Assembly (NCBI RefSeq): GCF_014692515.1
Contig: NZ_JACOIK010000014.1
Span: 62,001 to 126,000, forward strand
Length of the DNA stretch: 64,000 nucleotides
Direction of reading: 5' to 3'
Origin: Sphingobacterium micropteri
Lineage (GTDB): Bacteria > Bacteroidota > Bacteroidia > Sphingobacteriales > Sphingobacteriaceae
Every line of letters starts with the position of its first letter. Within the stretch, counting starts at the first letter, position 1. The notes beneath the pieces were generated by a model, which was not told where the DNA came from, searched no databases, and worked only from the letters and a program-made list of their open reading frames with translations. Made by a program: the position numbers and the translations under genes. This document shows positions 6,901-51,986 of this stretch, in pieces.

Positions 6901-7054
6901 CTGGACTTTTATCGTAATTACTAACCACCTTTCCGGTAATCGTCGTTTGTGCAAACACAGGAACGACCCCTAACGCCAACATGGTAAACAATAGCGAACG
7001 CCACATCCTCTTTTTCGTTATCTTCGTCATATATTCAGTTAATATTCGGTTCAT
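3929..7054 (-). CDS. SusC-type TonB-dependent receptor, divergent plug
   Basis: Outer-membrane importer partnered with the downstream susD. It has 1041 residues: a signal peptide to about residue 36 (PVFAQ), a carboxypeptidase-regulatory-like domain (about 38-110), a plug with LIVVDGVPYLPD and GSLGSNGVLLLET, and a barrel ending in GVNIKL. The typical VVVxGYG segment before the plug is absent; VVDGTFSDKNS stands there instead. The plug has GAETARYGSLGSNG rather than DAAATAIYGSRGANG. It therefore belongs to a divergent SusC branch. Its ATG overlaps the stop of the preceding FAS1 lipoprotein gene by one base, and its own stop overlaps the susD start. This tight coupling suggests the FAS1 protein, SusC and SusD work as one surface complex. 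An internal start at MTKITKK is also possible. Confidence 0.93.
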   Translation of the reverse strand: MNRILTEYMTKITKKRMWRSLLFTMLALGVVPVFAQTTITGKVVSNYDKSPVPDAVVTVLNTTSNVRTKKDGSFTLDEVDDRATTIRVWSPGYYEAYVEILGRSTFEITLIGEGRTNYINVVDGTFSDKNSNVLSDNDYRAGAVDIEQVLTGEMTGLRVLNKSGMVSEGGMFNFRGVRSFDADNTPLIVVDGVPYLPDLGNSPLIGGYSRGTFAPFALQDIKHIRLLKGAETARYGSLGSNGVLLLETSSSDDLETVVEFRGNYGLAHNYSTLPLLGGSAYKSLLGSVGMTQYEDMGELLTRFPFLRDDPDYYYNYLYNNTTDWQDVIYRNAFVTDNHLRIKGGDAVAKYDLSLGVLSQQGALDQTATTRYSTRLNSSINLGGKFDLKAITALTYSTSRLQEQGILTATNPLISALYRAPILSPYQKDVDNNVLPDLDRVGQFGVSNPLALLQTADFKSDIYDVFVQANLGYQATDRFRLNAVLGLFSNYTRQNAFIPGLSSGTILPLEDGLALNSARAGAGQTSNISWNLYGTYHKKWNQDEAFFGGGVQGLLTSQEYDAGSGRNTSSDFYRTLNYVNNAGRLFWGYNEQWNWMNIYGYTQYSWRSLAKLDVNLSIDGSSVSGANASRFGVFPAADLSFLLSNTALLKDINSIDNLVFKIGYAKTGNSRFSSKIGQAYYGSQLYRQLAGIVVGNIPNQNIRWEDNENWQASLIFSGMNQRLNLNVGYYFNRASNLLNAFPVSPIGGIDRIYMNGGAIDNQGLEVELNVAVIDNRDWSLTWRGNLSTLNSKVKRLVGGADMLHQQADGVTRINRVGVSPFSFYGANFRGVISSDAEADALGLQDYKNRYFGAGDAHFADINQDGVIDNEDQVPLGNSLPNLFGGTSLSIRYKNIHLQGLLSFSQGNQMYNGLRRSMESMDSYANQSEAVLRRWQTDGQQTNIPQAAYGDPMENARFSNRWIEDASFLRLENITLSYKFGQHRLNVLSNSEWYIAGENLFTWTDYLGLDPVTAYSNAISYMGADYGKIPLPRTFKFGVNIKL

Positions 7055-8622
7055 TAATAGTTATTTTGTGTTGGGATCAAAGCCCAGTGGTAAAGATCCA
7101 GCCGTTCAACATTTCCTTTACCTAGGCCTGCAAACTCCACCTTAATTTTAAAGGAACGCACATCGTCACCCTCAAGCATAACCGGGCCGACCAATCCACC
7201 CCAACCGTTGTACTTCGTTCCAGGCACCGTATTCGTATTCCGATCGAAATGCCAAGGTGTTGCCGGCTCCACATTGAGATTTAACGCAACGGGTTTATCG
7301 TCAATATAAATATTGACAAAGGGATGGTTCGTTGCTCGGAATCCCATATACAGGTTATACTCTCCGGGCGGTACTTCGACGACCTTATAATCCGTCGAAC
7401 CATCTGCGTTCCGCTCCAACATAACTGGTGTATAGTCAATCGATGTTGGTTTGTTATCTTCCAGATCACCCTCTATCCGTAGTGTGCGATAAGTTATCTC
7501 TACACCAATAGTAGGAAACGTTACGGTAACATCATCTGCAGGTCCAATACTTTTGACGTTATTCAATGTAAACCGCAAATCCTTTTCGTCATCCGGTACA
7601 AACTCCCAATAATGAAACAATTGCTTAATCATACTGATATGGACGTTATTTGGTATTTTGAGTTTGCTGATCTCGTAGATACGGCCGTTGCTCATGCGCC
7701 TAAAATTTGGGTCTACTTTTTGCACGGAAGGCTTCCAAAGCTTTCCAAAAACTGATGTAAGATCTTCTCCCGAAACATCATCGAGTAATGATTTATAAAA
7801 GATAGCATCTTTGATCCAGATGAAGGCCACTAAAGAATCCTCTTTCAAAAATTCCTTCCCAAATTGGTCGTACAATAGTCCTAGATCATTAAAACAATTT
7901 TCGATAACGTGATTGCTAGGCAAAAACATCGTTATTTCCGAAAACTCCGACCGGATATCTGCTTTTTCGAAAATAGGGTTGGTAATTACATATACCGAGT
8001 CATACAGCGTATTGCCCGTCGGGTCTACACCAATCGGAATACTGTTTTCCAGGTCAAAAATGGTATCGTTCATCGCGAGGATGGTATCCCGGATGATCGA
8101 GTAATCACTACCCAACGCTTCTATGTATTCATAAATGCTCAAATCAGGGGTCAAGAGTTGGTCGATCTCATGGACTACACCGTTCTGGCAAATCTGATTC
8201 CCTTTCACGACTGCTGCATCACCGACGTGTACGACCCCGCCATCTTTGTTTATCGATAAATATTTACCATTGAAGGTCATCACACGTAACCCACTCTTGA
8301 GCTTGGTATTATCATACATCAAACTGTTGATATGGTACCGCAGGATAAACTCGATATCTTCTCCCAAATTATTCAATGCGCCCATTTTTTCATTAGAAAC
8401 CGCCCAAATAGTCAGATTCTGGTCGCGCGCGAGTTCCGCTGCCAAATCATATTCTTCTAGCTTGGCCACAAAGTCCGAATACTGGGGCTGCGATTTTAAA
8501 TAGTCCAAAAGATTCAGGGAAGATACTGTTCCCTCTTCTTCCCCGTAATGGGTGTCCCAGTTTTTGTTACAACCGACAAGTATGGTAACTAAACATACTG
8601 TCGCATAAATTATCTGTTTCAT
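7054..8622 (-). CDS. FAS1 (fasciclin) domain lipoprotein
   Basis: Probable surface lipoprotein of 522 residues with lipobox LVGC (Cys18). FAS1-like blocks are recognisable by the patterns DLAAELARDQNLTIWAVSN, YHINSLMYDN and NGVVHEIDQLLTPD, and again by ITMFLPSNHVIEN. The last 150 residues are predicted beta-rich (GEYNLYMGFRATNHPFVNIY) and resemble a jelly-roll carbohydrate-binding or adhesive module. FAS1 domains mediate adhesion or protein-protein contact; their role in glycan uptake is not established. The gene lies between another FAS1 gene (16 bp upstream) and the divergent susC (one-base overlap). I infer an accessory role in the SusCD surface complex, by position only. Confidence 0.85.
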   Translation of the reverse strand: MKQIIYATVCLVTILVGCNKNWDTHYGEEEGTVSSLNLLDYLKSQPQYSDFVAKLEEYDLAAELARDQNLTIWAVSNEKMGALNNLGEDIEFILRYHINSLMYDNTKLKSGLRVMTFNGKYLSINKDGGVVHVGDAAVVKGNQICQNGVVHEIDQLLTPDLSIYEYIEALGSDYSIIRDTILAMNDTIFDLENSIPIGVDPTGNTLYDSVYVITNPIFEKADIRSEFSEITMFLPSNHVIENCFNDLGLLYDQFGKEFLKEDSLVAFIWIKDAIFYKSLLDDVSGEDLTSVFGKLWKPSVQKVDPNFRRMSNGRIYEISKLKIPNNVHISMIKQLFHYWEFVPDDEKDLRFTLNNVKSIGPADDVTVTFPTIGVEITYRTLRIEGDLEDNKPTSIDYTPVMLERNADGSTDYKVVEVPPGEYNLYMGFRATNHPFVNIYIDDKPVALNLNVEPATPWHFDRNTNTVPGTKYNGWGGLVGPVMLEGDDVRSFKIKVEFAGLGKGNVERLDLYHWALIPTQNNY

Positions 8623-18940: not shown

Positions 18941-21900
18941 TCATCCCTTTTTTTTCAGATAATCAGATGGGGAAACCTGATACATCTCTTTAAAGCAGGT
19001 ACTGAAATAACCCGAACTGTTGAATCCCACTTTGTAGGCAACTTCCGTCACCGTAAGCTCACCGGTATCCAGCAACTGCTTGGCTCGTTTCAATCTAATG
19101 TCCCGAATAAATTCTACCGGAGACATATTTGTTAAGCTTTTCAGCTTTTTATAGAACGTGGTTCTTCCCATCGCCATCGCATTTACGGCCACGTCAATAG
19201 TAAACGAGGTGTCCGACATCTGGTTTTCAATAATTTGGATAACCTCTCGTAAAAAAGTTTCGTCTTTAGACGTGATGACGACTTCCGTAGGTTCCAGTTT
19301 CAGTATCGTTTGCTGATCCACAATAGCAGCAACCAACCGTTGTCGATTTTTTAAAAGATTTTGCAGCAGATGCTTTACATAATCGATATGGAAAGGTTTC
19401 GTAATATAAAAATCTGCTCCGTAGGAAAGTCCTTTTATTTGATCTTCTATAGCGGACTTCGCTGTCAATAAAATAATGGGAATATGGCTCGTTGTCAGAT
19501 CACTTTTTATCTTTTCTAACATCTCGATACCATCAATTTCTGGCATCATGACATCCGAAACAATCACATCCGGTATCAATTCTCTCGCTTTCTCATAGCC
19601 TTCCTTGCCGTTGCTGGCTTCGTATACCGTATATACCGCTTTGAATTCATCAACCATAAAGCGTCTTAACTCCGGATTATCTTCGACCAAAAGTAATTTA
19701 AGGCGGTCTTCTCCATATTTTTCGTCCGCATCGGTTTCGCATATCCCCGTCGGCACATCAGCGCGTTCTTTTTCTTGACGGACTTCTAGATTTTCGGCCA
19801 ACAGATCTTGCGGTTCAAAATGGGCATTGCCTTCCAAAAATTGGATGGTAAAGGTCATCCCTCCATCTTCGTTTATTTCCGCAACGATCGTCCCACCGTG
19901 CAAATTCATAATATCTTTTGATAAGGCCAAACCGATTCCGGTGCCTTTAAACGCTTTATCTTGCGAATTTCCCCCTTCGTAATAAGGCTCGAAAATAACG
20001 TCGAGCTGATCTTTATGAACGCCCTCGCCTTGATCATGTATCTGAACGATGATATGCTCTCTTTCTTTTTCGATACGGATAACAATTCGACTTTTGTGCG
20101 GAGAGAACTTAACCGCGTTGGATATAACATTAAAAAACACAATATCCATTTTATCCTCATCACACCACATCTGGATTTCCGACTCACCGGTAATCAGCTC
20201 TAAGGATATCTGCTTATCCGCGACGATATCCGCGAAATTATCCAACAACTGTGTCAGAAAGCTCACCAATTCTACTTTTTTCACATCTAACTGTGCCTTT
20301 TGTTCTTGAATCTTACGAAAATCCAGCAATTGATTGACAAATCGAACCATACGGTCCGTATTCCTATTAGCCACATACAAGTATTTAACACCCTTTTCTG
20401 ATAACGTTTCGGTCTGCTTCAATTTACGCAATGGGTTGACGATAAGTGTTAAAGGCGTTCGCAATTCGTGTGAAATATTTGTAAAGAATTGTATTTTCAA
20501 GGCCGCTATTTTCTTCTCTACGGCTACTTTATGCTTTAATCTTATCATCGTGAAAATAATCCGTCGAACGACCTCCAGTGCACCGACAACCAAAATAATA
20601 TAACAAAGGATCGCCCAGCCACTTAACCACCAAGGTTTGTTTACGATGATAGCTATACTTTTTTCCGGTATGTTCGCGAAGTGTCCGTTGCTGGTCGTTT
20701 TCACCCGAAACGTGTAATTCCCAGGCGGGATTTTGGTATAGGTAGCTTTCTTCTGGTTTTTTACAAAATGCCAGTCTTTATCATATCCCTCCAATATATA
20801 AGCATAGGATATATCATCCGGCGCCCGATAATCCAACACGGTGTATTCAATGGTAATCACATCCTGATCATGCCGAAATACAATTTTGTCCGCATAATTA
20901 ATGGATGTTTTCAGTGGCGATTCGGGATCCTTAATGTCCATCTCTTTATTATACAGTTGGCTTCCCGTAAACACCATATTGCCGGGAAATTTTTCATTCA
21001 CAATTTTGTCCGGATAAAACGATATATAACCGTCCATTCCTCCAAAAAAGATCTCTCCTTTATCGGTTTTGAGACAGGCCGCTTCGGAAAAGCCCACTTT
21101 AGGGAGGCCGTTATAGGTATTGTAGTTTCTGAAATCTTCTGTTGCGACATTCATCACCGCAATACCATTCTCGGTGGTCATCCAAAGATTTTGATGGTTA
21201 TCCTCAATGATGCTTAGGATGATATCATTTGGCAACCCCTGTTCTTTGGTAAAAGCTCTAAATCGCAGATCCTCATTAAATTGGCCGGGTTTATTCAGAA
21301 CTTTACTCAGGCCTCCGCCAAAAGTACCGATCCAAACTTGATCATTACTCGATTTAAAAAGGTACATGATATCGTTATTTCCCAAACTACTTTTATCTCC
21401 CGCTATCTTTGCCGTGGGTATAAATTTAATGTCATCGGGATTTCCGTCCGGATCAAACCGCAGGAGCCCGTCGGTAGTTCCTAACCATATCTTGTTATCC
21501 GGTCCTTCCATAGCATGCCGTATCACCTGAAAAGCGCGTTTGGGATAATGCTTAAAGGAATTGTTAATATTTTTAAAATGCACCTTCCCCTTTTCTTCGA
21601 CCAATAGATTTGGACCTTTCTGAAAGGTAAATATCCACAATTTACCTTTATCATCTTCGGTAATGTTATAAATCTGATTACTGCTCAGACTCGTGATGTC
21701 CCTGGGATCGTTCTCATAACGGACGACCTTATATCTCGTTCGCTGCTCATTTTCAGGCTCCAGTTTAATCAGCCCGTAGCCTTTGGTGCCCATCCAGATG
21801 TTCTTATGCCGATCTTCTGTTATACAATATATACTGCCTGGAATTTGGCTATTATTGAGCACTTTTACATCGTCGTTTTTATGGAAATATACTTCACCTC

Positions 21901-23326
21901 GCTTATTTGTAATCCATATCTTTCCGTCGGAATCCTGTAGTAAAGCCCTTATTTCATTATCAAACCGGTCCGGGGAGGTATTGACTAAACGACTATGCCG
22001 GAAGTTGTCAGAAAAAAAAGTTGCTTTATTCACCCCACCATTTCGAGTACAGAACCACAATACCCCTTTTTTATCTGAATATGCCGCAACGATATTGTTC
22101 GAAAACAGCCTATTCGTATCGGCAGGATCGTTATAGAAGTAGGCCAATTTATTTGTCCCGCTCTCATACGCGCCAAATCCTCCCCCTTTTAAGCATACCC
22201 ATATCGTTCCATTAATATCTTCAAAGACTTTAAAACTTCGGTCGTTTATAAATCCTTCTTGCGTTATAAAAGGTAAATTATGTTCTTTCTTATGCACAAA
22301 GGCGTCGAATGTATCGGTCGATGGATTGTATAAAACGGCTCCGTCTTTTTCCGGTTCTAACCAGAGACTTCCGGTTCGATCTTCATACATAGACAAATAA
22401 TTCGCTTGTCCATTTTTCTGCTGCAGGGTACCATGTTGGGTGTCATAAATCTTCAACCCCTGATTGGGCATGGTTAAATAGATCTTGCCTGTTTTGGAGA
22501 ACAACATATCGGAAATTTCGCCGTCTCCTATCCGCTTTTGGGAAAAGGTTTTCGATGTCGGCTCATACGCTACCAAAATACCATCCGTTGTTGCGAAATA
22601 CAATTTTCCTTTTGCATTAGTCGCCGCATGCGAGAAGTTATGTTGTTGCCCATACACCTGATTTTTAGGTTCGAGAAGGGGAGTATATTCTTTATTCGCT
22701 TTGGTTAAACAGATCAAACCACGTTTCGTTCCAAACCAAACCCGATGCATGAGGTCTTCAAATATGAAGTTGACGTTATTTCCTAGATATGCGGTTTCCA
22801 TACTGTAGTTTACGACCTGCAACTTTCCATTTTCTAAGTCGGAGACGCATATCGCACTGTTGTCTTCCGTGGTTAACCACACATCCCCATTTGCCGTCGG
22901 AATAATACTTGAAATAAAGGCATGTTCCAGACTTCCTCCTTTATCGGTCATCGTAATCGGCAAAAATTCTTCTTTGCGCTTGTCAAAACGATATACTTTC
23001 TTATCGTATGTTTTTACCCATAGATATCCACGCTTATCCTCAACTATTTCCCTTATTTTATTACTTTTTAACGTAGACTGGTCTCCAGGTCTGGATTTAT
23101 AAACGACAAATTTATTGCCATCATAGCGATTCAATCCATCCCAAGTCCCGAACCATATAAAACCTTCCCTATCTTCTACTATACAGGAAACCCCATCATG
23201 AGACAATCCATTTTCGGTTGAATAGGTTCTAAATCTAGGTTCTCTCGCGATTCCTTGTGCATGAAATATAATGATAAACATTATCCATATCACCGCACCC
23301 CAAGCTTTTCCAATTTTTGCAGTCAT
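18941..23326 (-). CDS. Hybrid two-component system sensor/regulator (HTCS)
   Basis: Single-protein sensor and transcription factor that detects a glycan fragment in the periplasm and activates PUL promoters. It has 1461 residues. Order: signal segment; about 14 beta-propeller repeats (for example DREGFIWFGTWDGLNRYDG, ENIWMGTKGYGLIKL); a Y_Y_Y domain (SYAYILEGYDKDW); a transmembrane helix at about 901-920; a histidine kinase with NISHELRTPL (phospho-His953) and ATPase boxes (FNVISNAVKFSP, GTGIGLALSKDI); a receiver with phospho-Asp1258 (VSDVMMPEIDG); and a C-terminal AraC DNA-binding domain ending in VAYKVGFNSSGYFSTCFKEM. All key residues are present. Its own promoter carries the class 1 direct repeat, as do six other promoters here, so it is the best candidate for the factor binding them. 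That assignment is inference. Confidence 0.96.
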   Translation of the reverse strand: MTAKIGKAWGAVIWIMFIIIFHAQGIAREPRFRTYSTENGLSHDGVSCIVEDREGFIWFGTWDGLNRYDGNKFVVYKSRPGDQSTLKSNKIREIVEDKRGYLWVKTYDKKVYRFDKRKEEFLPITMTDKGGSLEHAFISSIIPTANGDVWLTTEDNSAICVSDLENGKLQVVNYSMETAYLGNNVNFIFEDLMHRVWFGTKRGLICLTKANKEYTPLLEPKNQVYGQQHNFSHAATNAKGKLYFATTDGILVAYEPTSKTFSQKRIGDGEISDMLFSKTGKIYLTMPNQGLKIYDTQHGTLQQKNGQANYLSMYEDRTGSLWLEPEKDGAVLYNPSTDTFDAFVHKKEHNLPFITQEGFINDRSFKVFEDINGTIWVCLKGGGFGAYESGTNKLAYFYNDPADTNRLFSNNIVAAYSDKKGVLWFCTRNGGVNKATFFSDNFRHSRLVNTSPDRFDNEIRALLQDSDGKIWITNKRGEVYFHKNDDVKVLNNSQIPGSIYCITEDRHKNIWMGTKGYGLIKLEPENEQRTRYKVVRYENDPRDITSLSSNQIYNITEDDKGKLWIFTFQKGPNLLVEEKGKVHFKNINNSFKHYPKRAFQVIRHAMEGPDNKIWLGTTDGLLRFDPDGNPDDIKFIPTAKIAGDKSSLGNNDIMYLFKSSNDQVWIGTFGGGLSKVLNKPGQFNEDLRFRAFTKEQGLPNDIILSIIEDNHQNLWMTTENGIAVMNVATEDFRNYNTYNGLPKVGFSEAACLKTDKGEIFFGGMDGYISFYPDKIVNEKFPGNMVFTGSQLYNKEMDIKDPESPLKTSINYADKIVFRHDQDVITIEYTVLDYRAPDDISYAYILEGYDKDWHFVKNQKKATYTKIPPGNYTFRVKTTSNGHFANIPEKSIAIIVNKPWWLSGWAILCYIILVVGALEVVRRIIFTMIRLKHKVAVEKKIAALKIQFFTNISHELRTPLTLIVNPLRKLKQTETLSEKGVKYLYVANRNTDRMVRFVNQLLDFRKIQEQKAQLDVKKVELVSFLTQLLDNFADIVADKQISLELITGESEIQMWCDEDKMDIVFFNVISNAVKFSPHKSRIVIRIEKEREHIIVQIHDQGEGVHKDQLDVIFEPYYEGGNSQDKAFKGTGIGLALSKDIMNLHGGTIVAEINEDGGMTFTIQFLEGNAHFEPQDLLAENLEVRQEKERADVPTGICETDADEKYGEDRLKLLLVEDNPELRRFMVDEFKAVYTVYEASNGKEGYEKARELIPDVIVSDVMMPEIDGIEMLEKIKSDLTTSHIPIILLTAKSAIEDQIKGLSYGADFYITKPFHIDYVKHLLQNLLKNRQRLVAAIVDQQTILKLEPTEVVITSKDETFLREVIQIIENQMSDTSFTIDVAVNAMAMGRTTFYKKLKSLTNMSPVEFIRDIRLKRAKQLLDTGELTVTEVAYKVGFNSSGYFSTCFKEMYQVSPSDYLKKKG

Positions 23327-23369
23327 TTATATCGGCTCCAATACTATCGTCATTTTGGTTTACAATTTC

Positions 23370-23414
23370 TAAATATAAACCATTCCTTAACATCGCGCAT
23401 CATGTAGTATCCTG
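23370..23414 (-). promoter_or_regulatory. Class 1 operator and promoter, HTCS gene
   Basis: On the minus strand, half-sites CAGGATAC (23407-23414) and CATGATGC (23397-23404) are spaced 10 bp apart. After exactly 19 bp comes the -7 box TATATTTA (23370-23377). The expected transcript start is about 37 nt before the HTCS ATG. The second half-site occupies the usual -33 position, as for a class II activator. This implies autoregulation if the HTCS binds it. Confidence 0.8.
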
Positions 23415-23435
23415 CTCGGCACTGTATTACAAAAA

Positions 23436-23465
23436 AACAGGCTGTCCGTGAAGGAACAGCCTGTT
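23436..23465 (-). terminator. Intrinsic terminator of the PL22-GH105 operon
   Basis: Perfect 10-bp stem (23436-23445 with 23456-23465) followed on the minus strand by seven U residues. This is the clearest rho-independent terminator in the window. It lies 27 bp after the GH105 stop and before the HTCS promoter. Confidence 0.85.
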
Positions 23466-23492
23466 GAAAAGTAAACAATATAAACTCCTTTT

Positions 23493-24914
23493 TTAATACG
23501 TTTGCCCGTCTACCCCGAAAATCGCTGCATCCGTTTTTGGATCTATCTCGTAGTATTGAATCGCGCTATCATTCATTTTCGGATAGCTTTTCTTAATCAA
23601 CGTTATCATTTCTGCTCCTGCTAACAATGCCGGCCCATATCCGTGTGCTGCATAGGCATTTACCGGACGATGGTAATAATAGGCCGGATCAAAAGCCATA
23701 CCCGTACCTACACAGGTACCTTCTACCTGTCCTTTCGCATTGATTTGCGTGGACACCGCGCTCCATCCCAATTGTGCTACCGGTCCGTAGGATATAACAT
23801 CCAGCCAACCTTTGTTAATGCCACGCGCAATACAGTATACATAGATCGCCGTAGCCGAAGTTTCTAGGTAGGAATCATTTTTATCCAATAACTGGTGCCA
23901 GAAGCCGGTACCTGATTGATAAGGAGCAATACCTTTGACATGCTTTTTATAAATATCGAGTATATCGTCTCTCTCTGGATGATCCAGCGGCAATACATCA
24001 AGCACTTCGGTTAGTGTAAGCAACGCCCATCCGTTGGCACGTGCCCAATGAAAAGCAGGGTGGCTATCTGCGCTTTCGATCCAGCCATGCATATACAATC
24101 CTTTTTCCGGCACGAACATACGTTGTGTAAATTGCTTTATCTGGCGTACAGCTTCGTCGAAATAACGTTTCTCGCCCGTGTAACTCCCCATTTGCGCAAG
24201 TGCAGGTATGCCCATGTACATATCATCCAGCCATAGACTATTCGCCTGTGGACGCATACGGGCGAACGTGCCATCGGCCAGACGGTGTTCTTTATTTTCA
24301 ATAAAGTCCATGTAATTGTTGATCAGCTCCTTGTAATCTACACCAGATGCCGTATGGCTAAATTTCACCATCGCGGCACACATTGCGCCGGCATCATCCA
24401 ACGAACCAGGCAATATCACTTGCCGGATTTGCCTATCCACCACATGGTGTTCTTCGTGCAGGCGCCGAAAATGCGGAGCCACGTCTGATAGAAAATCAAA
24501 GCGTTTCGCTACGTACTCCCTATATTTCGGATCTGCTGTTGCTTCCGCTGCCTCCAACATACCCGCATAGGTCACTCCCCATTCGTAACTTGCCAGACGA
24601 AAGTCACCTTTTTCCAATTGGGCATGTTTATTTAGTTGTGTGTAGTCTGTAATATCCTTTCCTGTTATAGTATCCAGTACACGGGTAGGTGTCTCTTCAT
24701 CTAGATAAACAAATATCCGATCAAGATGCTGTTTAATTTCCGCTGCGGTCCACTCTTTATAGGGCGTGGTATATTCTGGCGCCAACAGGTGCAGCGGAGT
24801 ATTCGAATCGTTGACCTTCGTCTCTTGTGTGGTCGTCTCTTGACATGACATCATTCCTACTATGGAAATGAGTCCTATTGATAAATACGCGGTTCTCATA
24901 TGTTCGTTAATCAT
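23493..24914 (-). CDS. GH105 unsaturated galacturonyl hydrolase, lipoprotein
   Basis: Family GH105 enzymes remove the 4,5-unsaturated galacturonyl residue left at the non-reducing end by pectin or rhamnogalacturonan lyases. It has 473 residues and lipobox MMSC (Cys24), so it is membrane-anchored, probably facing the periplasm. The (alpha/alpha)6-barrel motifs seen are DDMYMGIPALAQMG, FHWARANGWALLTLTEVLDVLP and SYLETSATAIYVYCIARGI. The start overlaps the upstream GH106 stop by four bases (ATGA); an in-frame ATG five codons later (MRTAYLS) is also possible and would give a more typical signal peptide. It is the last gene of the PL22 operon. A second, diverged GH105 lies in the neighbouring operon (41664-42824), so the two probably act on different oligosaccharides. 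Confidence 0.9.
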   Translation of the reverse strand: MINEHMRTAYLSIGLISIVGMMSCQETTTQETKVNDSNTPLHLLAPEYTTPYKEWTAAEIKQHLDRIFVYLDEETPTRVLDTITGKDITDYTQLNKHAQLEKGDFRLASYEWGVTYAGMLEAAEATADPKYREYVAKRFDFLSDVAPHFRRLHEEHHVVDRQIRQVILPGSLDDAGAMCAAMVKFSHTASGVDYKELINNYMDFIENKEHRLADGTFARMRPQANSLWLDDMYMGIPALAQMGSYTGEKRYFDEAVRQIKQFTQRMFVPEKGLYMHGWIESADSHPAFHWARANGWALLTLTEVLDVLPLDHPERDDILDIYKKHVKGIAPYQSGTGFWHQLLDKNDSYLETSATAIYVYCIARGINKGWLDVISYGPVAQLGWSAVSTQINAKGQVEGTCVGTGMAFDPAYYYHRPVNAYAAHGYGPALLAGAEMITLIKKSYPKMNDSAIQYYEIDPKTDAAIFGVDGQTY

Positions 24915-27775
24915 TTTATCGTTCTTTTCAAAGGAATTAGGGTTACTTCACCCGAAAGACCAGAAGCTTTCGGGTTCCAATTTCGGGCAGAGAATATACC
25001 ATCTTCCCCTCTATTTTCTGCACGTCTAGCCGCAAAATTGATATTATAAAATTTTCGCCAAGTCATTCCTTGTTTATCCATATAGGCTATACGGTTGGCC
25101 ATCAGATTAGATACAGCAATTTTCAAGGTGTCGTTCCCATGCAAGGCTTCTACTGGTATTTCCAATTCGTATGGCGCATTCAACAGGGTACCGATATGCT
25201 TGTCATTCAAATAGATGGCCGCACTCTCATGCACATTATCCAAACGCAACAACCAAGCGTCGGTACTTTCCGATAAGGACGGAATAATCGTCATGTATTC
25301 CGCCGTCCCAGAAAAATGTTCATAATCGCTACCATAATTCACCCAGGACTGCAATTTTTCTGTCGAGACACTTTCCGGCAAGATAGGACCTCCTTTAATA
25401 AAATCAATCTTCCAGTCTGAGAGGGCGACAGCATTGTCCAATATTTCGTAGAAAGGGTATAATTCTCCCGTATAAATATCCTTAAATGTCTCCACGACAA
25501 TCGATTCTTCGGGACGAATACTTACATATATGACGGTTTTTCTTTCATCTGATTTGGTAAACGCATACCCTTCCGCACCTGTCATCGGGTTATATAATGC
25601 GGCCGAAGTGTAATCAACCTGTAGGGCAATCCATCCCTTAAACAATGTATCGGAGGTATTTTTGATAAAATAATAGTAGTTACCATCATCTTTAAGACGA
25701 CGAATCGATTGTAAACCATCGTTGTAAAACGATTCAGGCTGAACGCCGGAATATGTGACAAGCTCCGGGAGCTCTTCAGCGACCACAATTAATCCTTTTC
25801 CATAAGCCGCCATACACCGGTTGCCTTCCTGTTTAAACGATAATTCGTTTTTCAAATGTGCTATCTTCTGCGTTCCCTCTGCCTTTCCGCCCATACCCGG
25901 AGCGGCCTTTGGAAGATCTTTCACAAATAACAAAGTTGCTCCCTCATTCGCCAAATTAATCAGTTTTTCAAAGGTCTCAGCCGGCATAAGGGACGCTTCC
26001 GGAATTAAAATAGTTTTATAGCTATTCCCATTTGTAAGGAGTTGATTAACCTCGTAGGTAACATCCTGCAATTGTTGATCGGAAATAGCATCCCAGGAAT
26101 ATCCATTTTCCGACAAGTAATCCCCACAGACCTTGAGACTGAGATCGTCAAATAAGGTGTTGGAATGAAAGTGCTTCAACATGTAATTCCCTCGTTCTGA
26201 CCAGTGGTCGGCAACATTAAAATAAACCAGTATATCATTGGCTGGACGCCCTGCTTGCAGGAAACTCTGGGAACGGGCGACGTATTGGTTTAATGTTTTA
26301 AAATCGTCCCACAGACTATTGGTCGGCGTAAAATGTACCGCTGCATAAAAAAGCCATCCTGGCCACATAGCTTCTTGTGGAGAATAAGCCGTACCATGAT
26401 AAAAGATATGATTTACGCCAGAAAGAAACATGTTATCTACCGCATTCTTTACATCCCCCCAATTAGACTCAAAATGTTCATTAAGCCAAGTGGCCGATTC
26501 GGAGGAAATCAGCTTTTTACCCGTAACATGTGCGGCTGAGGCGGCACTTTTAAGGTTAACGATTTCGCGGCCTTCGATTTCGGGCACGTCGCTGGCTGCG
26601 TACAAATCCAACACATTTGCCGGCGAGCCGTGCGCCTGATTACGGATGCCTTTACCCTGTGCACTCGCCCATTTCTGCCATGGTTTGGTATAGTTTTCTA
26701 ACAAAAGCTGACTTATCGTCCAGCGGTAATCATATATAACGCGGCCGTTCATTTCCTCCGTATCTCGTCCTAACAAGGCAGGGATATAGTTGCGCAAATC
26801 GTAGTCGTTTAGCTGCTGGAATGCTGTAAAGAAGTCTGGAGTCCAATTGGCTTCGCCATGGGCGTCGTCCACTTCATAGGAATCGTTAAAATAATATCTT
26901 AGATAGTTGAGATCATGATTTTTGAACGCTGTATCAAACTTATCCAAATATCCGTCTAACGCTGATCTTGAGAAATGATCGATCACATTTCCTTCTCCTC
27001 CAGGGCCAGCACGCTCTACCTGTTTGCCGTGCAAACCTTCAAACAGTGCACAGATCACCCACTCTCCCTCGGGGACTACCCATGTCAGCTGGCCATCTTC
27101 TACCTGATTCGTCAGGTCGATCTTCTCCGTAAAACCATCTTGACCAGACTTATGTGCCGAAACCAAAATCAGCGGCAAAGGCTTCTCCAAACGCACCTGA
27201 TCGAAAGCGTATTCTTGCAAATCACCATAAGTTGACAACGGTTCTTTTACATCGTTGATTTGCACCTTCTTTCCGTCTTGCATACGCAGGACAGGTTGCT
27301 GCATATACGCTATGTTTGTTGAAAATGTTTCTCCACCGGCGACGTTAAACACTTGAGAAGTGAAATATCGAGATGCTGTTTCCGCGCCAACCCAAGGTCC
27401 ACCGAATGGCCATCCTGATGCGTTAGCTAGATCTACACCTAATCCAAGTCGCTCGGATTCTTTCAACGTATACACCAACTTCTCCGTCCAATCAGGAGAA
27501 AGAAAATCAATAAACTGTTTTTCTTCTCCTTTTACACCATAAATAGGTGTTATTTCCACACCCCCCAATCCCGCTTCTTTGTAGGCCTCCAGTGATGCTG
27601 TTAATCCTTTTTCCGTTACCGCACTACCATGCCACCACCAGCGTGTCCAAGGTTTCATTTCCGGTGTAATTTCCGGCCAGGAAATTTTCCCCGTTTCTTT
27701 TTGTTGCAAATTATTTTGCTCGCAGCTCGAGAATACAGTTATCAGACAAAGAGAAAGAAAAATAAAGTGTTTCAT
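24911..27775 (-). CDS. GH106 alpha-L-rhamnosidase, lipoprotein
   Basis: Releases terminal L-rhamnose from rhamnogalacturonan oligosaccharides by inversion. It has 954 residues and lipobox FSSC (Cys18). The N-terminal GH106 signature is strong: EMKPWTRWWWHGSAV, GLGGVEITPIYGVKG and GLGVDLANASGWPFGGP. Later blocks are GPGGEGNVIDHFSRSALDGYL, of which GPGGEGNVIDHFS is best conserved, plus FNDSYEVDDAHGEANWTPDF, NQAHGSPANVLDLYAASD, KLISSESATWLNEHF and GVNHIFYHGTAYSP. The C-terminal beta-sandwich ends with NLMANRIAYMDKQGMTWRKF. Catalytic glutamates were not mapped with certainty. The neighbouring operon has a second GH106 with an ordinary cleavable signal peptide, which suggests different locations or linkages for the two. 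Confidence 0.93.
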   Translation of the reverse strand: MKHFIFLSLCLITVFSSCEQNNLQQKETGKISWPEITPEMKPWTRWWWHGSAVTEKGLTASLEAYKEAGLGGVEITPIYGVKGEEKQFIDFLSPDWTEKLVYTLKESERLGLGVDLANASGWPFGGPWVGAETASRYFTSQVFNVAGGETFSTNIAYMQQPVLRMQDGKKVQINDVKEPLSTYGDLQEYAFDQVRLEKPLPLILVSAHKSGQDGFTEKIDLTNQVEDGQLTWVVPEGEWVICALFEGLHGKQVERAGPGGEGNVIDHFSRSALDGYLDKFDTAFKNHDLNYLRYYFNDSYEVDDAHGEANWTPDFFTAFQQLNDYDLRNYIPALLGRDTEEMNGRVIYDYRWTISQLLLENYTKPWQKWASAQGKGIRNQAHGSPANVLDLYAASDVPEIEGREIVNLKSAASAAHVTGKKLISSESATWLNEHFESNWGDVKNAVDNMFLSGVNHIFYHGTAYSPQEAMWPGWLFYAAVHFTPTNSLWDDFKTLNQYVARSQSFLQAGRPANDILVYFNVADHWSERGNYMLKHFHSNTLFDDLSLKVCGDYLSENGYSWDAISDQQLQDVTYEVNQLLTNGNSYKTILIPEASLMPAETFEKLINLANEGATLLFVKDLPKAAPGMGGKAEGTQKIAHLKNELSFKQEGNRCMAAYGKGLIVVAEELPELVTYSGVQPESFYNDGLQSIRRLKDDGNYYYFIKNTSDTLFKGWIALQVDYTSAALYNPMTGAEGYAFTKSDERKTVIYVSIRPEESIVVETFKDIYTGELYPFYEILDNAVALSDWKIDFIKGGPILPESVSTEKLQSWVNYGSDYEHFSGTAEYMTIIPSLSESTDAWLLRLDNVHESAAIYLNDKHIGTLLNAPYELEIPVEALHGNDTLKIAVSNLMANRIAYMDKQGMTWRKFYNINFAARRAENRGEDGIFSARNWNPKASGLSGEVTLIPLKRTIK

Positions 27776-27794
27776 ATTACAGGGCTTGAGTTAT

Positions 27795-29096
27795 TCATGA
27801 ACCGACCTTCAATTCATTAGCAGCAGAAACTTCTACCACTACTTTCGCGGCTAATTGTTTCGCCAGATCCACAATGTAGTTTTCAAAATAATCACGGTTA
27901 CGGAAACCCTCGTCGCTCAATTCCCAACCGGCAATGGCATAATAGCTGACATGGGCATCATCGGAGATGTCTAGTTTGGCCATATAACTATCCACCAATG
28001 GACCTATTTTCGGAGCTTCCGTGTATCCGTTGTAACAGTCATACGGCAGGATAAGAGCCAATCCCAACCACCACTCCTGACCGTAGGACTGTCGATCGTG
28101 TGTATACAAGACCACCCATTGGTTATCGATGATGATTTCTTTGGGTGGCTGGCTCGAAAAAATATTGACCAAGCCCACAAGTAAGGTATCTCCCTCTTGC
28201 ACCCCTTGGGCACGAACCGTATTCTGATAGCCGTACATCCCTGCCCAGATAACAGGCTGCTCCGTTAAGCTATAATAACGACCTCCTGCTTTCCAATTCC
28301 GGTACTGAAGATCCATTGAAGATCGCAAAGGTCCTTTCTCTACAACCCTAAAAATCGTTGTGTCCACGTTGTTAACGGCATCCAATGCGGTTACCCCGAC
28401 ACGGTACATAGCATCTCCATTGGCCAACGCAATCCCACCAATTCCCACAGAGTTCCCTACAGGCATGATATCCCTTCCCCAATCCAACATCACATGGTAG
28501 TTGTCTTCCACAGCCCCCTGCGCATTGATGCCAACATCGGAGGGGCTCATATAAGAAACCTTTTTACCAAAAACGTCCTTCGAATTACGACCGTCCAAGT
28601 AATGCCGAAACCCCACTTTGTCGTTTTCCCAAGAAGGCCCATCCGTTTGGTATGGTTGGTAACCTATGCTAAGTGGCAATTGATCAGCGTAAAGTGTGTC
28701 TCCCAATCTCGGTTGTACGGGGTTGCCCAGTCCGTCTCGCTTACCAAACCGAACCGCCGTTTTCTGTTCATACGCTATGCTGTCATCGGTATGTTGCGCT
28801 GTCAAGACCACTTCGCCCAACGCGGGAATATCGATCAGGAAAAACAGTTCATCCCACTCACCGTCTCCGGTGGTATCATTTACTTGGGAGGGAATGGTAT
28901 CGCCCTTTGCATCAAGCAAGAGTGGGTAAAATTTCTTATCGTTCGTCAAATCCGACCGTTTGACGACAATGGCCTTCTGCCGTAAATCAACAGAATCAGT
29001 ATTCTTCAGCGTAATTATCTTTATTTCTTCGCGTTGGCTACATGATGATAATGCGAAAAGGGCTGTACATCCTAAAAAGAATAAATATTTCATCAT
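27795..29096 (-). CDS. DUF4861-family lipoprotein, function unknown
   Basis: Lipoprotein of 433 residues with lipobox LSSC (Cys19). It matches the DUF4861 pattern often found in uronic-acid PULs: ALGEVVLTAQHTDDS, GPSWENDKVGFRHYLDGRN, DVFGKKVSYMSPSDVG, YHVMLDWGRDIMPVGNSVG, GLVNIFSS and YYAIAGWELSDEGFRNRDYF. The many conserved Trp, Asp and His residues and the beta-rich composition suggest a carbohydrate-active enzyme with a supersandwich-like fold, but no activity is known to me. It sits eight bases after PL22 and 19 bases before GH106, in an operon otherwise made of pectin enzymes. This suggests it processes unsaturated galacturonate or rhamnogalacturonan oligosaccharides. The function is left open. 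Confidence 0.75.
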   Translation of the reverse strand: MMKYLFFLGCTALFALSSCSQREEIKIITLKNTDSVDLRQKAIVVKRSDLTNDKKFYPLLLDAKGDTIPSQVNDTTGDGEWDELFFLIDIPALGEVVLTAQHTDDSIAYEQKTAVRFGKRDGLGNPVQPRLGDTLYADQLPLSIGYQPYQTDGPSWENDKVGFRHYLDGRNSKDVFGKKVSYMSPSDVGINAQGAVEDNYHVMLDWGRDIMPVGNSVGIGGIALANGDAMYRVGVTALDAVNNVDTTIFRVVEKGPLRSSMDLQYRNWKAGGRYYSLTEQPVIWAGMYGYQNTVRAQGVQEGDTLLVGLVNIFSSQPPKEIIIDNQWVVLYTHDRQSYGQEWWLGLALILPYDCYNGYTEAPKIGPLVDSYMAKLDISDDAHVSYYAIAGWELSDEGFRNRDYFENYIVDLAKQLAAKVVVEVSAANELKVGS

Positions 29097-29104
29097 CTTA
29101 TCGA

Positions 29105-30478
29105 TTAGTCAAGTCTTTTACTATATGTTCGTTCCAACCAACTTTTTGGTACAGGAATAATACAGATATTCATCGTACGGTCATCTTCCGAGAGCATGGC
29201 GGATTGAATCTGGATACGCGTGCCATCTGGACTGAATGTGGGGTGTGGGTGGTCTGCTGCGGTAGTTTTATGCCCCGAAGACAACAGCACCATCTCGTGG
29301 GTATGACGGTCAATCAGATAGATATCTCGTGCAAAGTCATCCCCAACCAGCCAGCGGCCATCACCCGAACCAGCTACGTGCCAAAAACCACTGCCACGAT
29401 GGGTCTGCCCTTCAATACGCATTTCCCGTGTTCGGAGGTTTACAACGGCAAAACCCGTAGGCTTCTCCCGTGTACCGGAAGGACCCCAAGCTGTTTCCTG
29501 TCCCGGATTAGCACCACCAACGTTTGTGCCCGGAGACGTCTGACCCTTCACAACCCCAGGAATAGGGCGATGCCCCATAATCGCAACACCGACTTCATCC
29601 GTCGTCAGAAATGCTTCATGGGTGACCCATTCGTATTCGGACTCGGGATAGAGCGGTCGCAGTCCGGTACCATCCGCCATAACCGTCCATGTACGCTGAG
29701 GCGACTTGCCCCCGGTTTCCCAGCAAAAGACAATTTCACCCTTTTTCCAAGGGTTTGTCTGTATATGTCCCACCTGAAAAGGAACAGAGATCACATGGGC
29801 GACTTCACCAGTCTTAATATTCATCTTTGCGATACCTGATGGACCGGCTCCCATATTGCGGGGACCAAACGCTTCTTCAATTTTTGTACCCTCGGGCAGG
29901 TGTTTAGCCGCTTCGTCCTTACCAACACGGAAAAACACCCATTCTTCGCTATCGCCGTCCAATGCCATATCGCCACCGGCACCGATTTCAGGAGACGTGG
30001 TCCCGCAAACCCTTTGGTAGACCGATGCCGACTGCAAATTTCCCGTCTCAATATCAGCAAACAGCTTTGCCAGATCCACTTCGATAACTTCCATTGATCC
30101 ATCTGCACTCCTTCCCATAGGTTTGCGCATGAAATAGAGGTGCATGGAGTTTCTCGCGATATTTAACATACCGGTGTACCCTCCTTCAGTAACTTGCACC
30201 ATTTCTCCGCTTTCTTCATGAGCGGCAATTGCTTCGCCAGGTTCACGGTCTGAACGAAAGATCAACCACTTTCCATCCGACGTCCATTGGTTGTGTGTCT
30301 GGTATATTTTTGAATCCCCAACCGGTGTGCTGGTTAAAAATACCAGATCAATACCGGTAACCGGATCATTGACAACCTTTCGCTCGGAAGGAAAACGTTT
30401 ACCAATCTGTGCTGTGGCAGACCAAGAACACAACAAGACCATACCAAACATCATCAATTTCAAATAAATCGTATACAT
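29105..30478 (-). CDS. PL22-like oligogalacturonate lyase, beta-propeller
   Basis: PL22 enzymes split short oligogalacturonides, including unsaturated digalacturonate, into monomers. It has 457 residues with a signal peptide (WSATAQ), so it is periplasmic, unlike the cytoplasmic enterobacterial enzyme. Beta-propeller blades are seen: TSDGKWLIFRSDREPGE, QVTEGGYTGMLNIARNSMHLYF, GHIQTNPWKKGEIVFCWETGG and WVTHEAFLTTDEVGVAIMGHR. The last blade, ADHPHPTFSPDGTRIQIQSA, matches the PL22 C-terminal HPHPSF block. Conserved His residues in these blades would bind the Mn2+ and substrate. It starts four bases after a 47-residue mini-ORF (30483-30626), so it may be translationally coupled to it. It is the first enzyme gene of the operon. 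Confidence 0.85.
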   Translation of the reverse strand: MYTIYLKLMMFGMVLLCSWSATAQIGKRFPSERKVVNDPVTGIDLVFLTSTPVGDSKIYQTHNQWTSDGKWLIFRSDREPGEAIAAHEESGEMVQVTEGGYTGMLNIARNSMHLYFMRKPMGRSADGSMEVIEVDLAKLFADIETGNLQSASVYQRVCGTTSPEIGAGGDMALDGDSEEWVFFRVGKDEAAKHLPEGTKIEEAFGPRNMGAGPSGIAKMNIKTGEVAHVISVPFQVGHIQTNPWKKGEIVFCWETGGKSPQRTWTVMADGTGLRPLYPESEYEWVTHEAFLTTDEVGVAIMGHRPIPGVVKGQTSPGTNVGGANPGQETAWGPSGTREKPTGFAVVNLRTREMRIEGQTHRGSGFWHVAGSGDGRWLVGDDFARDIYLIDRHTHEMVLLSSGHKTTAADHPHPTFSPDGTRIQIQSAMLSEDDRTMNICIIPVPKSWLERTYSKRLD

Positions 30479-30482
30479 AAGC

Positions 30483-30626
30483 TTAATAACTGTCTTTTTT
30501 TCTTACAAAATGTACAAGCAAAGTGAAGAGTTGCCCATGATAAAGTTGAAAGATCTCTTCAAAAGCGACCTCATCGCCTTGGCGAAGACGATCGATTAAT
30601 ATTGGATTAACTACACTTCTAGTCAT
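30483..30626 (-). CDS. 47-residue ORF resembling the N-terminus of an ECF sigma factor
   Basis: A short ORF (ATG at 30624-30626, TAA at 30483-30485) lies between the operon promoter and PL22. Its core, LIDRLRQGDEVAFEEIFQLY, then HGQLFTLLVHFVRKKDSY, reads like sigma region 2.1 and the start of 2.2 of Bacteroidota ECF sigma factors. Those would normally continue into the AEDIVQEVF-type helix, but here a stop codon follows. The ATG is about 36 nt downstream of the predicted transcript start, the same leader length as the HTCS gene, and PL22 begins four bases after its stop. It may be a remnant of a truncated sigma gene, or a translated leader or mini-protein. The resemblance is by eye only. Confidence 0.6.
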   Translation of the reverse strand: MTRSVVNPILIDRLRQGDEVAFEEIFQLYHGQLFTLLVHFVRKKDSY

Positions 30627-30668
30627 GAGAAAGGTTTATAATGTTTATTTATAACATAGTTGCCAATT

Positions 30669-30713
30669 GCAATTTAGGGAATACCTTTCGTAACACTATC
30701 ATGCTGTATCCTG
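30669..30713 (-). promoter_or_regulatory. Class 1 operator and promoter, PL22-DUF4861-GH106-GH105 operon
   Basis: On the minus strand, half-sites CAGGATAC (30706-30713) and CATGATAG (30696-30703), 10-bp period, are followed after exactly 19 bp by the -7 box TAAATTGC (30669-30676). The predicted start is about 36 nt before the mini-ORF and 184 nt before PL22. The whole 304-bp gap before PL22 is thus filled by the mini-ORF, this promoter and the susD terminator. Confidence 0.75.
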
Positions 30714-30734
30714 TGTACAGATGGCTATAATGAA

Positions 30735-30761
30735 AGAGAGCTGCAAATCAAGCAGCTCTCT
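30735..30761 (-). terminator. Hairpin terminator after susCD
   Basis: Perfect 10-bp stem AGAGAGCTGC (30735-30744) with GCAGCTCTCT (30752-30761) and a 7-nt loop, 21 bp after the susD stop. Only a short U-run follows. Confidence 0.7.
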
Positions 30762-30782
30762 AACATATACATATAATAAAAA

Positions 30783-32291
30783 CTAATATCCGTTATTTTG
30801 CTCATAAAGTCCGGGCGCATTACTCATTTCCGACTGCGGAACGGGATATAGGATATAATCCGTTTTGAAATCTTCCATTTGCCCTCCGGTATCCTCCTCC
30901 TCGATCCAAGTTTTCATCGTGGTTTCCGCCGTTCCTGACCGAATAAGATCAAACCAACGCAATCCCTCGCCCACGAATTCACGACGACGTTCCTCCAGAA
31001 GCTGTGCCTTCGTTACATCGGTGAGGGTTGTGGTCAAGCCGGCACGCTCACGAACTGCGTTCACGACTGCATCTACATCAGTTATTGTAGAGCCCGGTGC
31101 TCCATTCAATACACATTCTGCTTTTAACATCAACAGGTCTGTGTAACGGAATACGATATAATTAATCGGCCAGTCAAACCGGCTCGTGGTGGGCACCTTG
31201 GTGATATCTACATATTTTCTGATAAAGGAACGGTTTTCGACGACAGCTCCATACGTATACCCCTCCTGTATACTAAAGGCTCTACGAACATCATTTTCGT
31301 CATATTTACTTAATAAATCCAAAGAAACCGGCCGTATCATAAGGCCTCCCTGTACCCCAAAACCTAAAGATTGGAACCAAGTATCGGGTACCAATACCCA
31401 AGGGAAGGTTGCACCAACGACAGGGTTGGATCCGCTGGAATATTCAATATTAAATACGACCTCTTTATTACGTTCATTACCGTAATTGAATATCTCTTGA
31501 TAGGTCGGTAAAAACTGAAACTCATTACTGGTTATAATATCGTTAAATTCATTCACAGCCTCGCTCCATTCGTTTGTATTCAGTCCGGCTCCATCAATAC
31601 CATAATTAGGCCCCGAACGTGTCATATACACCAGTCCAAGCAACATCTTGGCGGCGTACTTGTTCGCACGCCCTTTATCTGCAGTAGCATACGTACTCGG
31701 TGCAGGCAGATAGTCAATCGCCAAGTTAACATCTTCGATGATTAAATTATAGATATCGCTGACCTCACTGCGAGGAATAGTCTTCGCTTCATTCGCGGAG
31801 ACTACGCGGTCAATTAAGGGGACTCGCCCAAAATAACGAAGCAAATCAAAATAATAAAATGCCCGGAGAAAACGTACTTCTCCTTCCATACGCCGACGTA
31901 CAGCCTCATCTAAAATGACGGATTCGCCTTTTTCCGCTAATTGCTCCAAATAGTTATTAGCCCTAAAAATACCGGTAAAATTGGCCTCCCAAGCTTCCTC
32001 CACATAAGGATTGCTCGAAATGGTACGATGAAAACTGTTAATGCCCTCCCAATCGCGCACCCCTCCATCCGAAATTGCATGCAGATTGTCCGATCTCGTC
32101 TCGGATAGATTCATGAGTCGGTCCGGATAGCTTCTTGCCGAACTATAGACCGCATTTAGTCCTTGGTTAAAATCATCCACCGTTTGAAAATAAGTTTCAG
32201 ACGACGCCTCTGAGATCGGCTGCTGTGCTAAATCCATATCACAGGACGTTAACAACCCTAAACTCATTACAAAATATAATATCTTTTTCAT
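30783..32291 (-). CDS. SusD/RagB-type outer-membrane lipoprotein
   Basis: Surface glycan-binding partner of the adjacent susC (gap four bases). It has 502 residues and lipobox LTSC (Cys17). Family hallmarks: CDMDLAQQPISEASSETYF, FNQGLNAVYSSARSY, RRRMEGEVRFLRAFYYFDL followed by LRYFGRVPLI, then FRYTDLLMLKAECVL, LLEERRREFVGEGLRWFDLI and a C-terminal YILYPVPQSEMSNAPGL. It is a textbook SusD, unlike the divergent one at 2289-3929. The pair is placed between the two rhamnogalacturonan enzyme operons and shares their operator, so its likely ligand is a rhamnogalacturonan oligosaccharide. Confidence 0.96.
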   Translation of the reverse strand: MKKILYFVMSLGLLTSCDMDLAQQPISEASSETYFQTVDDFNQGLNAVYSSARSYPDRLMNLSETRSDNLHAISDGGVRDWEGINSFHRTISSNPYVEEAWEANFTGIFRANNYLEQLAEKGESVILDEAVRRRMEGEVRFLRAFYYFDLLRYFGRVPLIDRVVSANEAKTIPRSEVSDIYNLIIEDVNLAIDYLPAPSTYATADKGRANKYAAKMLLGLVYMTRSGPNYGIDGAGLNTNEWSEAVNEFNDIITSNEFQFLPTYQEIFNYGNERNKEVVFNIEYSSGSNPVVGATFPWVLVPDTWFQSLGFGVQGGLMIRPVSLDLLSKYDENDVRRAFSIQEGYTYGAVVENRSFIRKYVDITKVPTTSRFDWPINYIVFRYTDLLMLKAECVLNGAPGSTITDVDAVVNAVRERAGLTTTLTDVTKAQLLEERRREFVGEGLRWFDLIRSGTAETTMKTWIEEEDTGGQMEDFKTDYILYPVPQSEMSNAPGLYEQNNGY

Positions 32292-50143: not shown

Positions 50144-50408
50144 CCTATTTTCACCATTCCTTATACCGAAGAAAAGGTATATCCTTGGGAGGCAATAGTT
50201 CATCCTTATCCATATCAAAAAGGGAGTACTTTACGACTTTGTAATATTCTAATAAGGTTGGCATTTTGCTAATTCGGGGATTATGCAGACTATGATTGTA
50301 GGTATAACTATAGCCTTTTTTGTCTTTGTATTGGACAGAATCTACTCCAATTGCCTTATTCAAAAAATTTACAAATTTTTCGCGGTTAGGCCCACGTTTT
50401 ATTTGGTT
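50140..50408. repeat. 269-bp direct repeat, copy A
   Basis: Identical base for base, by visual alignment, to 51505-51773 (offset 1365). It covers part of the terminator and the C-terminal 85 codons of the small secreted-protein gene. Beyond 50408 the copies diverge quickly. Confidence 0.85.
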
Positions 50409-50627
50409 TACCATATTCACGTACTGTTGTTTAGCCTCATTTGTTTGCTGTGCATACTTATCTGACAGCTGTGCATATTTATCGTACTCTACACTAGATT
50501 CACGAAGTTTACCAAGCATAACTCTAATCGTTCGTTCCTCTTGATTAGAGTTATGCTGAGCCATACCAATTCCTATACATAGAACCAATCCCAATGTAAA
50601 AAGTAAAATTTTTTCAAGTATTTTCAT
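50151..50627 (-). CDS. Small secreted protein, paralogue of 51516-51986
   Basis: I do not recognise this family. It has 158 residues with an N-terminal signal peptide (LVLCIGIGMAQ), so it is probably periplasmic. The middle part is a Lys/Glu/Gln/Tyr-rich helix, likely coiled coil (YDKYAQLSDKYAQQTNEAKQQY). The C-terminal 90 residues are identical to those of the protein at 51516-51986, while the N-terminal halves differ. It is the last gene of the accessory cassette. Small exported paralogues next to a lipoprotein with a peptidase-like C-terminus recall immunity proteins beside a toxin, but no sequence match supports that. It could equally be a binding partner of the same lipoprotein. Confidence 0.75.
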   Translation of the reverse strand: MKILEKILLFTLGLVLCIGIGMAQHNSNQEERTIRVMLGKLRESSVEYDKYAQLSDKYAQQTNEAKQQYVNMVNQIKRGPNREKFVNFLNKAIGVDSVQYKDKKGYSYTYNHSLHNPRISKMPTLLEYYKVVKYSLFDMDKDELLPPKDIPFLRYKEW

Positions 50628-51508: not shown

Positions 51509-51773
51509 CCTATTTTCACCATTCCTTATACCGAAGAAAAGGTATATCCTTGGGAGGCAATAGTTCATCCTTATCCATATCAAAAAGGGAGTACTTTACG
51601 ACTTTGTAATATTCTAATAAGGTTGGCATTTTGCTAATTCGGGGATTATGCAGACTATGATTGTAGGTATAACTATAGCCTTTTTTGTCTTTGTATTGGA
51701 CAGAATCTACTCCAATTGCCTTATTCAAAAAATTTACAAATTTTTCGCGGTTAGGCCCACGTTTTATTTGGTT
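51505..51773. repeat. 269-bp direct repeat, copy B
   Basis: Identical to 50140-50408 over its full length, including third codon positions. Flanks are similar but not identical on both sides (about 80 bp on the 5' side and 80 bp on the 3' side), which shows an older duplication with recent homogenisation of the centre. Confidence 0.85.
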
Positions 51774-51986
51774 CACCATATCAACGTACTGTTTTTTAGC
51801 CTCATTTTTTTGCTGTTCGTACTTATCCGACAGTTGGGCATATTTATCGTACTTCACCGCATAGTCTAATAAATACATAAGTTGCTTTTTTATTTCAACT
51901 CTTTCTGATACCTCTTGTGCTACAGTAACTGTACATAATAAGCACAAGAAAAAACATTTCAAAAGTGTTATTCCCATCTTTTTCAT
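51516..51986 (-). CDS. Small secreted protein, paralogue of 50151-50627
   Basis: Family not recognised. It has 156 residues with a signal peptide ending LCTVTVAQ. A helix rich in Lys, Tyr and Gln (YDKYAQLSDKYEQQKNEAKK) is followed by the C-terminal domain identical to that of 50151-50627 (GPNREKFVNFLNKAIGVDSV ... LLPPKDIPFLRYKEW). It starts 28 bases after the stop of the lipoprotein gene at 52015, so it is probably in the same transcript. I propose it interacts with that lipoprotein; this rests on position only. Confidence 0.75.
   Translation of the reverse strand: MKKMGITLLKCFFLCLLCTVTVAQEVSERVEIKKQLMYLLDYAVKYDKYAQLSDKYEQQKNEAKKQYVDMVNQIKRGPNREKFVNFLNKAIGVDSVQYKDKKGYSYTYNHSLHNPRISKMPTLLEYYKVVKYSLFDMDKDELLPPKDIPFLRYKEW

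Follow-up and report, generated by a model that had tools for sequence, protein, structure and literature searches.

A 47-codon reading frame ahead of a PL22-like gene in Sphingobacterium micropteri is probably the decaying 5' remnant of an ECF sigma factor gene

Genes around the 47-codon reading frame

The DNA analyzed here (the window) is a stretch of 64,000 nucleotides from the 4.85 Mb genome of Sphingobacterium micropteri, referred to as G000. The list of open reading frames and the sequence itself show a 47-codon ORF on the minus strand at positions 30483-30626, intact from its ATG to its TAA (MTRSVVNPILIDRLRQGDEVAFEEIFQLYHGQLFTLLVHFVRKKDSY). A preliminary description of this DNA had reported such an ORF, and it is present exactly there; the spacing that it gave was likewise confirmed, the PL22-like gene starting 4 nt past the stop of the mini-ORF. 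Upstream lies susD, and the order behind the PL22-like gene is DUF4861, GH106, a GH88/GH105-type gene and a hybrid two-component regulator. The main features are the following.

30783..32291, minus strand: susD, used as synteny anchor (Pfam SusD_RagB and SusD-like_3; orthologues in 20 genomes of the genus)
30483..30626, minus strand: 47-codon ORF, putative 5' remnant of an ECF sigma gene (ORF list, sequence, homology to the intact syntenic sigma gene of G021)
29105..30478, minus strand: gene following the remnant, PL22-like (oligogalacturonate lyase-like; PD40 repeats, sub-threshold match to Pfam PF14583, PDB 3pe7/3c5m)

The enzyme had been labelled PL22 without qualification. Its score against Pfam PF14583 is 27.7 bits, which is sub-threshold for a cut-off of 30, no NCBIfam match above cut-off was obtained, and the oligogalacturonate lyase structures 3pe7 and 3c5m give the assignment weak support. 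Close relatives of the protein (64-93%) are common across Bacteroidota, and it possibly belongs to a distinct PL22-like group. In S. pedocola (L049, about 4461-7389), the PL22-like gene comes directly after a GH105 gene and not after susD, an operon order unlike that of the window. Elsewhere in the window, two paralogous small ORFs on the minus strand (50151-50627 and 51516-51986) have identical last 79 residues (80-158 of the first) and differing N-terminal parts, which looks like a recent duplication or gene conversion.

Homology to a sigma gene, frameshift and junction

To place the mini-ORF, the 47-residue query was searched against 120 relatives. One strong match was found, in the congeneric genome G021 (67% over 45 residues, E = 6.7e-14), and it sits inside an intact ECF sigma gene of 197 amino acids. 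The G021 sigma factor scores 141.5 bits against TIGR02985 (cut-off 126.4), with the Pfam Sigma70_r2 match at residues 26-90 and region 4 at residues 126-175. Its gene directly follows a susC-susD pair which is 86% and 78% identical to that of the window, so that the mini-ORF occupies, by synteny, the position of a complete sigma gene. The order in G021 is sigma, FecR anti-sigma, an opposite-strand gene, which we take from its sequence to be GH95, then an STN-type SusC, SusD and GH105. A chance ORF unrelated to sigma factors was ruled out by this synteny together with the E value of the match.

In profile comparisons, the match of the mini-ORF itself to Pfam Sigma70_ECF was only sub-threshold (E 0.21), and SigW was its best NCBIfam match (E 0.004). 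The sigma-like core noticed earlier corresponds to a real similarity, but one in which residues 34-47 are frameshifted. At the nucleotide level, the mini-ORF and the G021 sigma DNA align colinearly for about 133 bases, interrupted once, by a gap of one base in codon 33, which divides the ORF into two parts.

30528..30626, minus strand: codons 1-33, still in the sigma frame (nucleotide alignment with the G021 sigma gene, one-base gap in codon 33)
30483..30527, minus strand: codons 34-47 and stop, out of the sigma frame (FACTFCKKK in tblastn frame 3 matches the sigma factor; tail common to the DNA upstream of PL22 in G015)

Once past the gap, the mini-ORF encodes FTLLVHFVRKKDSY. Translated in the sigma frame, this DNA instead gives HFACTFCKKK, a match to HFAHTFCKEK of G021 and FACTYAKDK of G022 (E 0.004 in tblastn frame 3). 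The sigma-derived DNA stops near 30493. The rest of 30483..30527 is PL22-flank DNA, the last residues and the stop lying beyond the sigma homology, in sequence common to the DNA upstream of PL22 in G015. The preliminary description had remarked that the stop falls just where an AEDIVQEVF-type helix should begin; this is a coincidence, because the stop belongs to a different frame and was contributed by the PL22 flank. A sequencing error is unlikely to be the cause of the frameshift, as the missing base is shared with G015. By our own estimate, (61/64)^14, a further 14 codons stay open by chance about half the time, and an ORF of 47 codons needs no selection: 33 are open by descent and 14 by chance.

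Homology to ECF sigma factors thus covers residues 1-33, those in frame. Of region 2, which binds core RNA polymerase and the -10 element, only residues 26-33 are left in frame (8 of the 65 that the Pfam match spans), and region 4, which binds the -35 element, is absent from the 47-residue product. With region 2 incomplete and region 4 absent, the predicted protein fails to qualify as a member of the ECF sigma family.

Fate of the remnant in related genomes

When 94 genomes of the genus were searched at the DNA level, the sequence of the mini-ORF was found at this locus in G000, G021, G036 and G015 only, with one further and marginal match of 42 bases in G010 (E 5.5e-4). The intact 47-codon ORF is present in a single one of the 94, G000. 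The closest relative, G036 (susD 92% identical at the amino-acid level; sister of G000 in the rpoB tree, 100/100), has ATT in place of the start codon and lacks codons 13-46. G015 has lost roughly the first 31 codons, apparently by a deletion involving a GGCAA repeat, and also the stop, by the loss of one base, its leftover frame running into PL22. The frame has been destroyed independently in these two related lineages, and PL22 and its operon are intact in both.

No cognate FecR gene stands beside the mini-ORF, the next gene being the PL22-like one. FecR of orthologous grade (51-52% in G022 and G014) was not found in G000, G036 or G015, and the best FecR of G000 is 42% identical. In Bacteroidota, ECF sigma/FecR pairs are known beside susC-susD (TIGR02985, Sig70_bacteroi1; PF04773, FecR). 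The locus resembles them in that residues 1-33 match the N-terminus of such a sigma factor and that the intact orthologue and its FecR occupy the same place in G021, but it has lost about five sixths of the sigma gene along with the entire FecR gene, and the stump is frameshifted.

These data bear on the proposal, made in the preliminary description, of a mini-protein with RNA polymerase or an anti-sigma factor as its binding partner, which in a functional reading would regulate the operon. Split sigma factors do exist: RsoA of Bacillus subtilis has a sigma-2 domain and, in the SigO-RsoA system, cooperates with a sigma-4 partner that is a separate protein (PMC8103513). The mini-ORF is similar in being a short product with part of a sigma factor, its residues 1-33 matching the start of ECF sigma region 2, but it ends inside the start of that region and has no adjacent partner gene encoding sigma-4. 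Two points count against a reading as debris: the frame is open, with a plausible start, immediately ahead of PL22, and codons 1-31 differ from G021 by 8 synonymous and 6 non-synonymous codon changes, although this comparison also covers the time when the gene was intact. Against a functional peptide stand the frameshift, with the last 14 residues out of frame, the few region 2 residues left, the missing orthologous FecR in G000 and the rarity of the intact ORF in the genus. The preliminary description had itself held that frame disruption in close relatives with a conserved operon would speak against its proposal, and this is what is seen in G036 and G015. On frame, domain content and non-conservation we rejected a functional mini-sigma, which has practically no chance of being correct.

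The same two genomes bear on another suggestion, in which the stump is retained as a translated leader, its product useless and its translation coupled to PL22 through the stop-4 nt-start arrangement. That arrangement, with the stop 4 nt before the PL22 ATG, favors such coupling; however, G036 has neither start nor frame and G015 has no stop, so that the arrangement is not needed in relatives, whose PL22 is intact. We consider translational coupling very unlikely, and the earlier suggestion of a retained translated leader is unsupported. For the stump to have been taken over in this species alone, as a short translated peptide or leader tuning the PL22-like operon, the chances would be slimmer still.

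What the mini-ORF does resemble is a truncated pseudogene at a deletion junction: there is a 5' stump, a frameshift, a junction beside the start of another gene, and further deletions that differ between related lineages. The one dissimilarity is that the stump here happens to stay open for 47 codons. An intact syntenic orthologue exists in G021, frameshift and truncation are found here and the frame is not conserved in relatives; considered as a gene, the mini-ORF qualifies as a decaying pseudogene. The idea of a truncation scar, already raised in the preliminary description, is upheld by the synteny with the intact sigma-FecR pair. A search of the literature on truncation of ECF sigma genes in Bacteroidetes found no paper. 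A plasmid origin was also considered and rejected, no match being found among plasmids.

The leader and the loss of the sigma/FecR pair

Between susD and the mini-ORF lies a leader whose features are listed below.

30735..30761, minus strand: terminator-like hairpin after susD (terminator scan, 10 pairs)
30627..30715, minus strand: conserved leader, candidate former sigma promoter region (eight-genome alignment; likeness to the region upstream of the G022 sigma gene; element unique in the genome)
30696-30715, minus strand: leader block CACAGGATACAGCATGATAG (alignment of eight genomes)
30659-30672, minus strand: leader block TTGCAATTGGCAAC (alignment of eight genomes)
30633-30645, minus strand: leader block AACATTATAAACC (alignment of eight genomes)

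From the hairpin to the old start codon, the leader is 84% identical to that of G036; overall identity shows no constraint by itself, because this value is no higher than that of susD (88%). The blocks CACAGGATACGGCATGATAG, TTGC, TTAT and TATAAACC recur in most of the eight genomes. When the leader was compared with the region upstream of the orthologous sigma gene of G022, which lies at another locus, the local score was 44 versus 22.6 ± 3.8 for shuffled sequences, and none of 2000 shuffles scored as high; the direct comparison of the G021 and G022 upstream regions was weaker (14 of 2000 shuffles). A scan of the region for sigma-70-type promoters found 1 where 1.8 were expected, which is chance level. 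The class 1 promoter announced earlier had been given no definition; the leader is nonetheless conserved between species. No Rfam match indicating a structured RNA was found in the leader. A regulon-wide operator was rejected, since the genome has a single copy of the CACAGGATAC-GCATGATAG element when up to 3 mismatches are allowed.

The leader is found directly before GH105 in G034, G041 and G050, and directly before GH106 in G014, in each case with no sigma remnant. Within one Sphingobacterium clade the first gene behind this leader is thus of four kinds (sigma, PL22-like, GH105 or GH106), a pattern suggesting that the leader is kept while what follows it changes. As a separate observation on G014, comparison with window positions 18941-32291 gave 98% identity for GH105, 95% for GH106 and 91% for the regulator, against 80% for the adjacent SusD, a contrast which suggests recombination or horizontal exchange within the locus.

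Leaders without any remnant would also fit a history in which the mini-ORF is debris while the operon owned the leader from the start, the sigma-FecR pair having been inserted behind it and later lost with no hand-over of a promoter. The tree does not settle the branching order within the clade, which likewise leaves room for such a history. The likeness of the leader to the region upstream of the orthologous G022 sigma gene, in a different context, argues against it, though the G021-G022 comparison is less clear-cut. We regard an original ownership of the leader by the operon as a serious but rather unlikely alternative. Judging from these comparisons, the leader and promoter that once served the sigma gene are most likely used by the enzyme operon today.

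Taken together, these results indicate, with a probability of about 0.93, that the mini-ORF is the decaying 5' remnant of a full-length ECF sigma gene, its open frame being a neutral leftover and the leader DNA being kept. A full-length ECF sigma gene and FecR would once have followed susD, as they do today in G021. A deletion, or a replacement, with one breakpoint within the sigma gene would have taken the rest of that gene together with FecR, joining the stump to the DNA just before the PL22-like gene. A further one-base deletion would have frameshifted the stump, the stop of the 47-codon frame being supplied by the PL22 flank, and the kept leader most likely still drives transcription of the PL22 operon.

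A candidate sigma-like mini-protein is hereby removed from consideration. The locus would instead offer a clear example of a polysaccharide-utilisation locus losing its sigma/anti-sigma switch, a point of modest interest for how such loci evolve.
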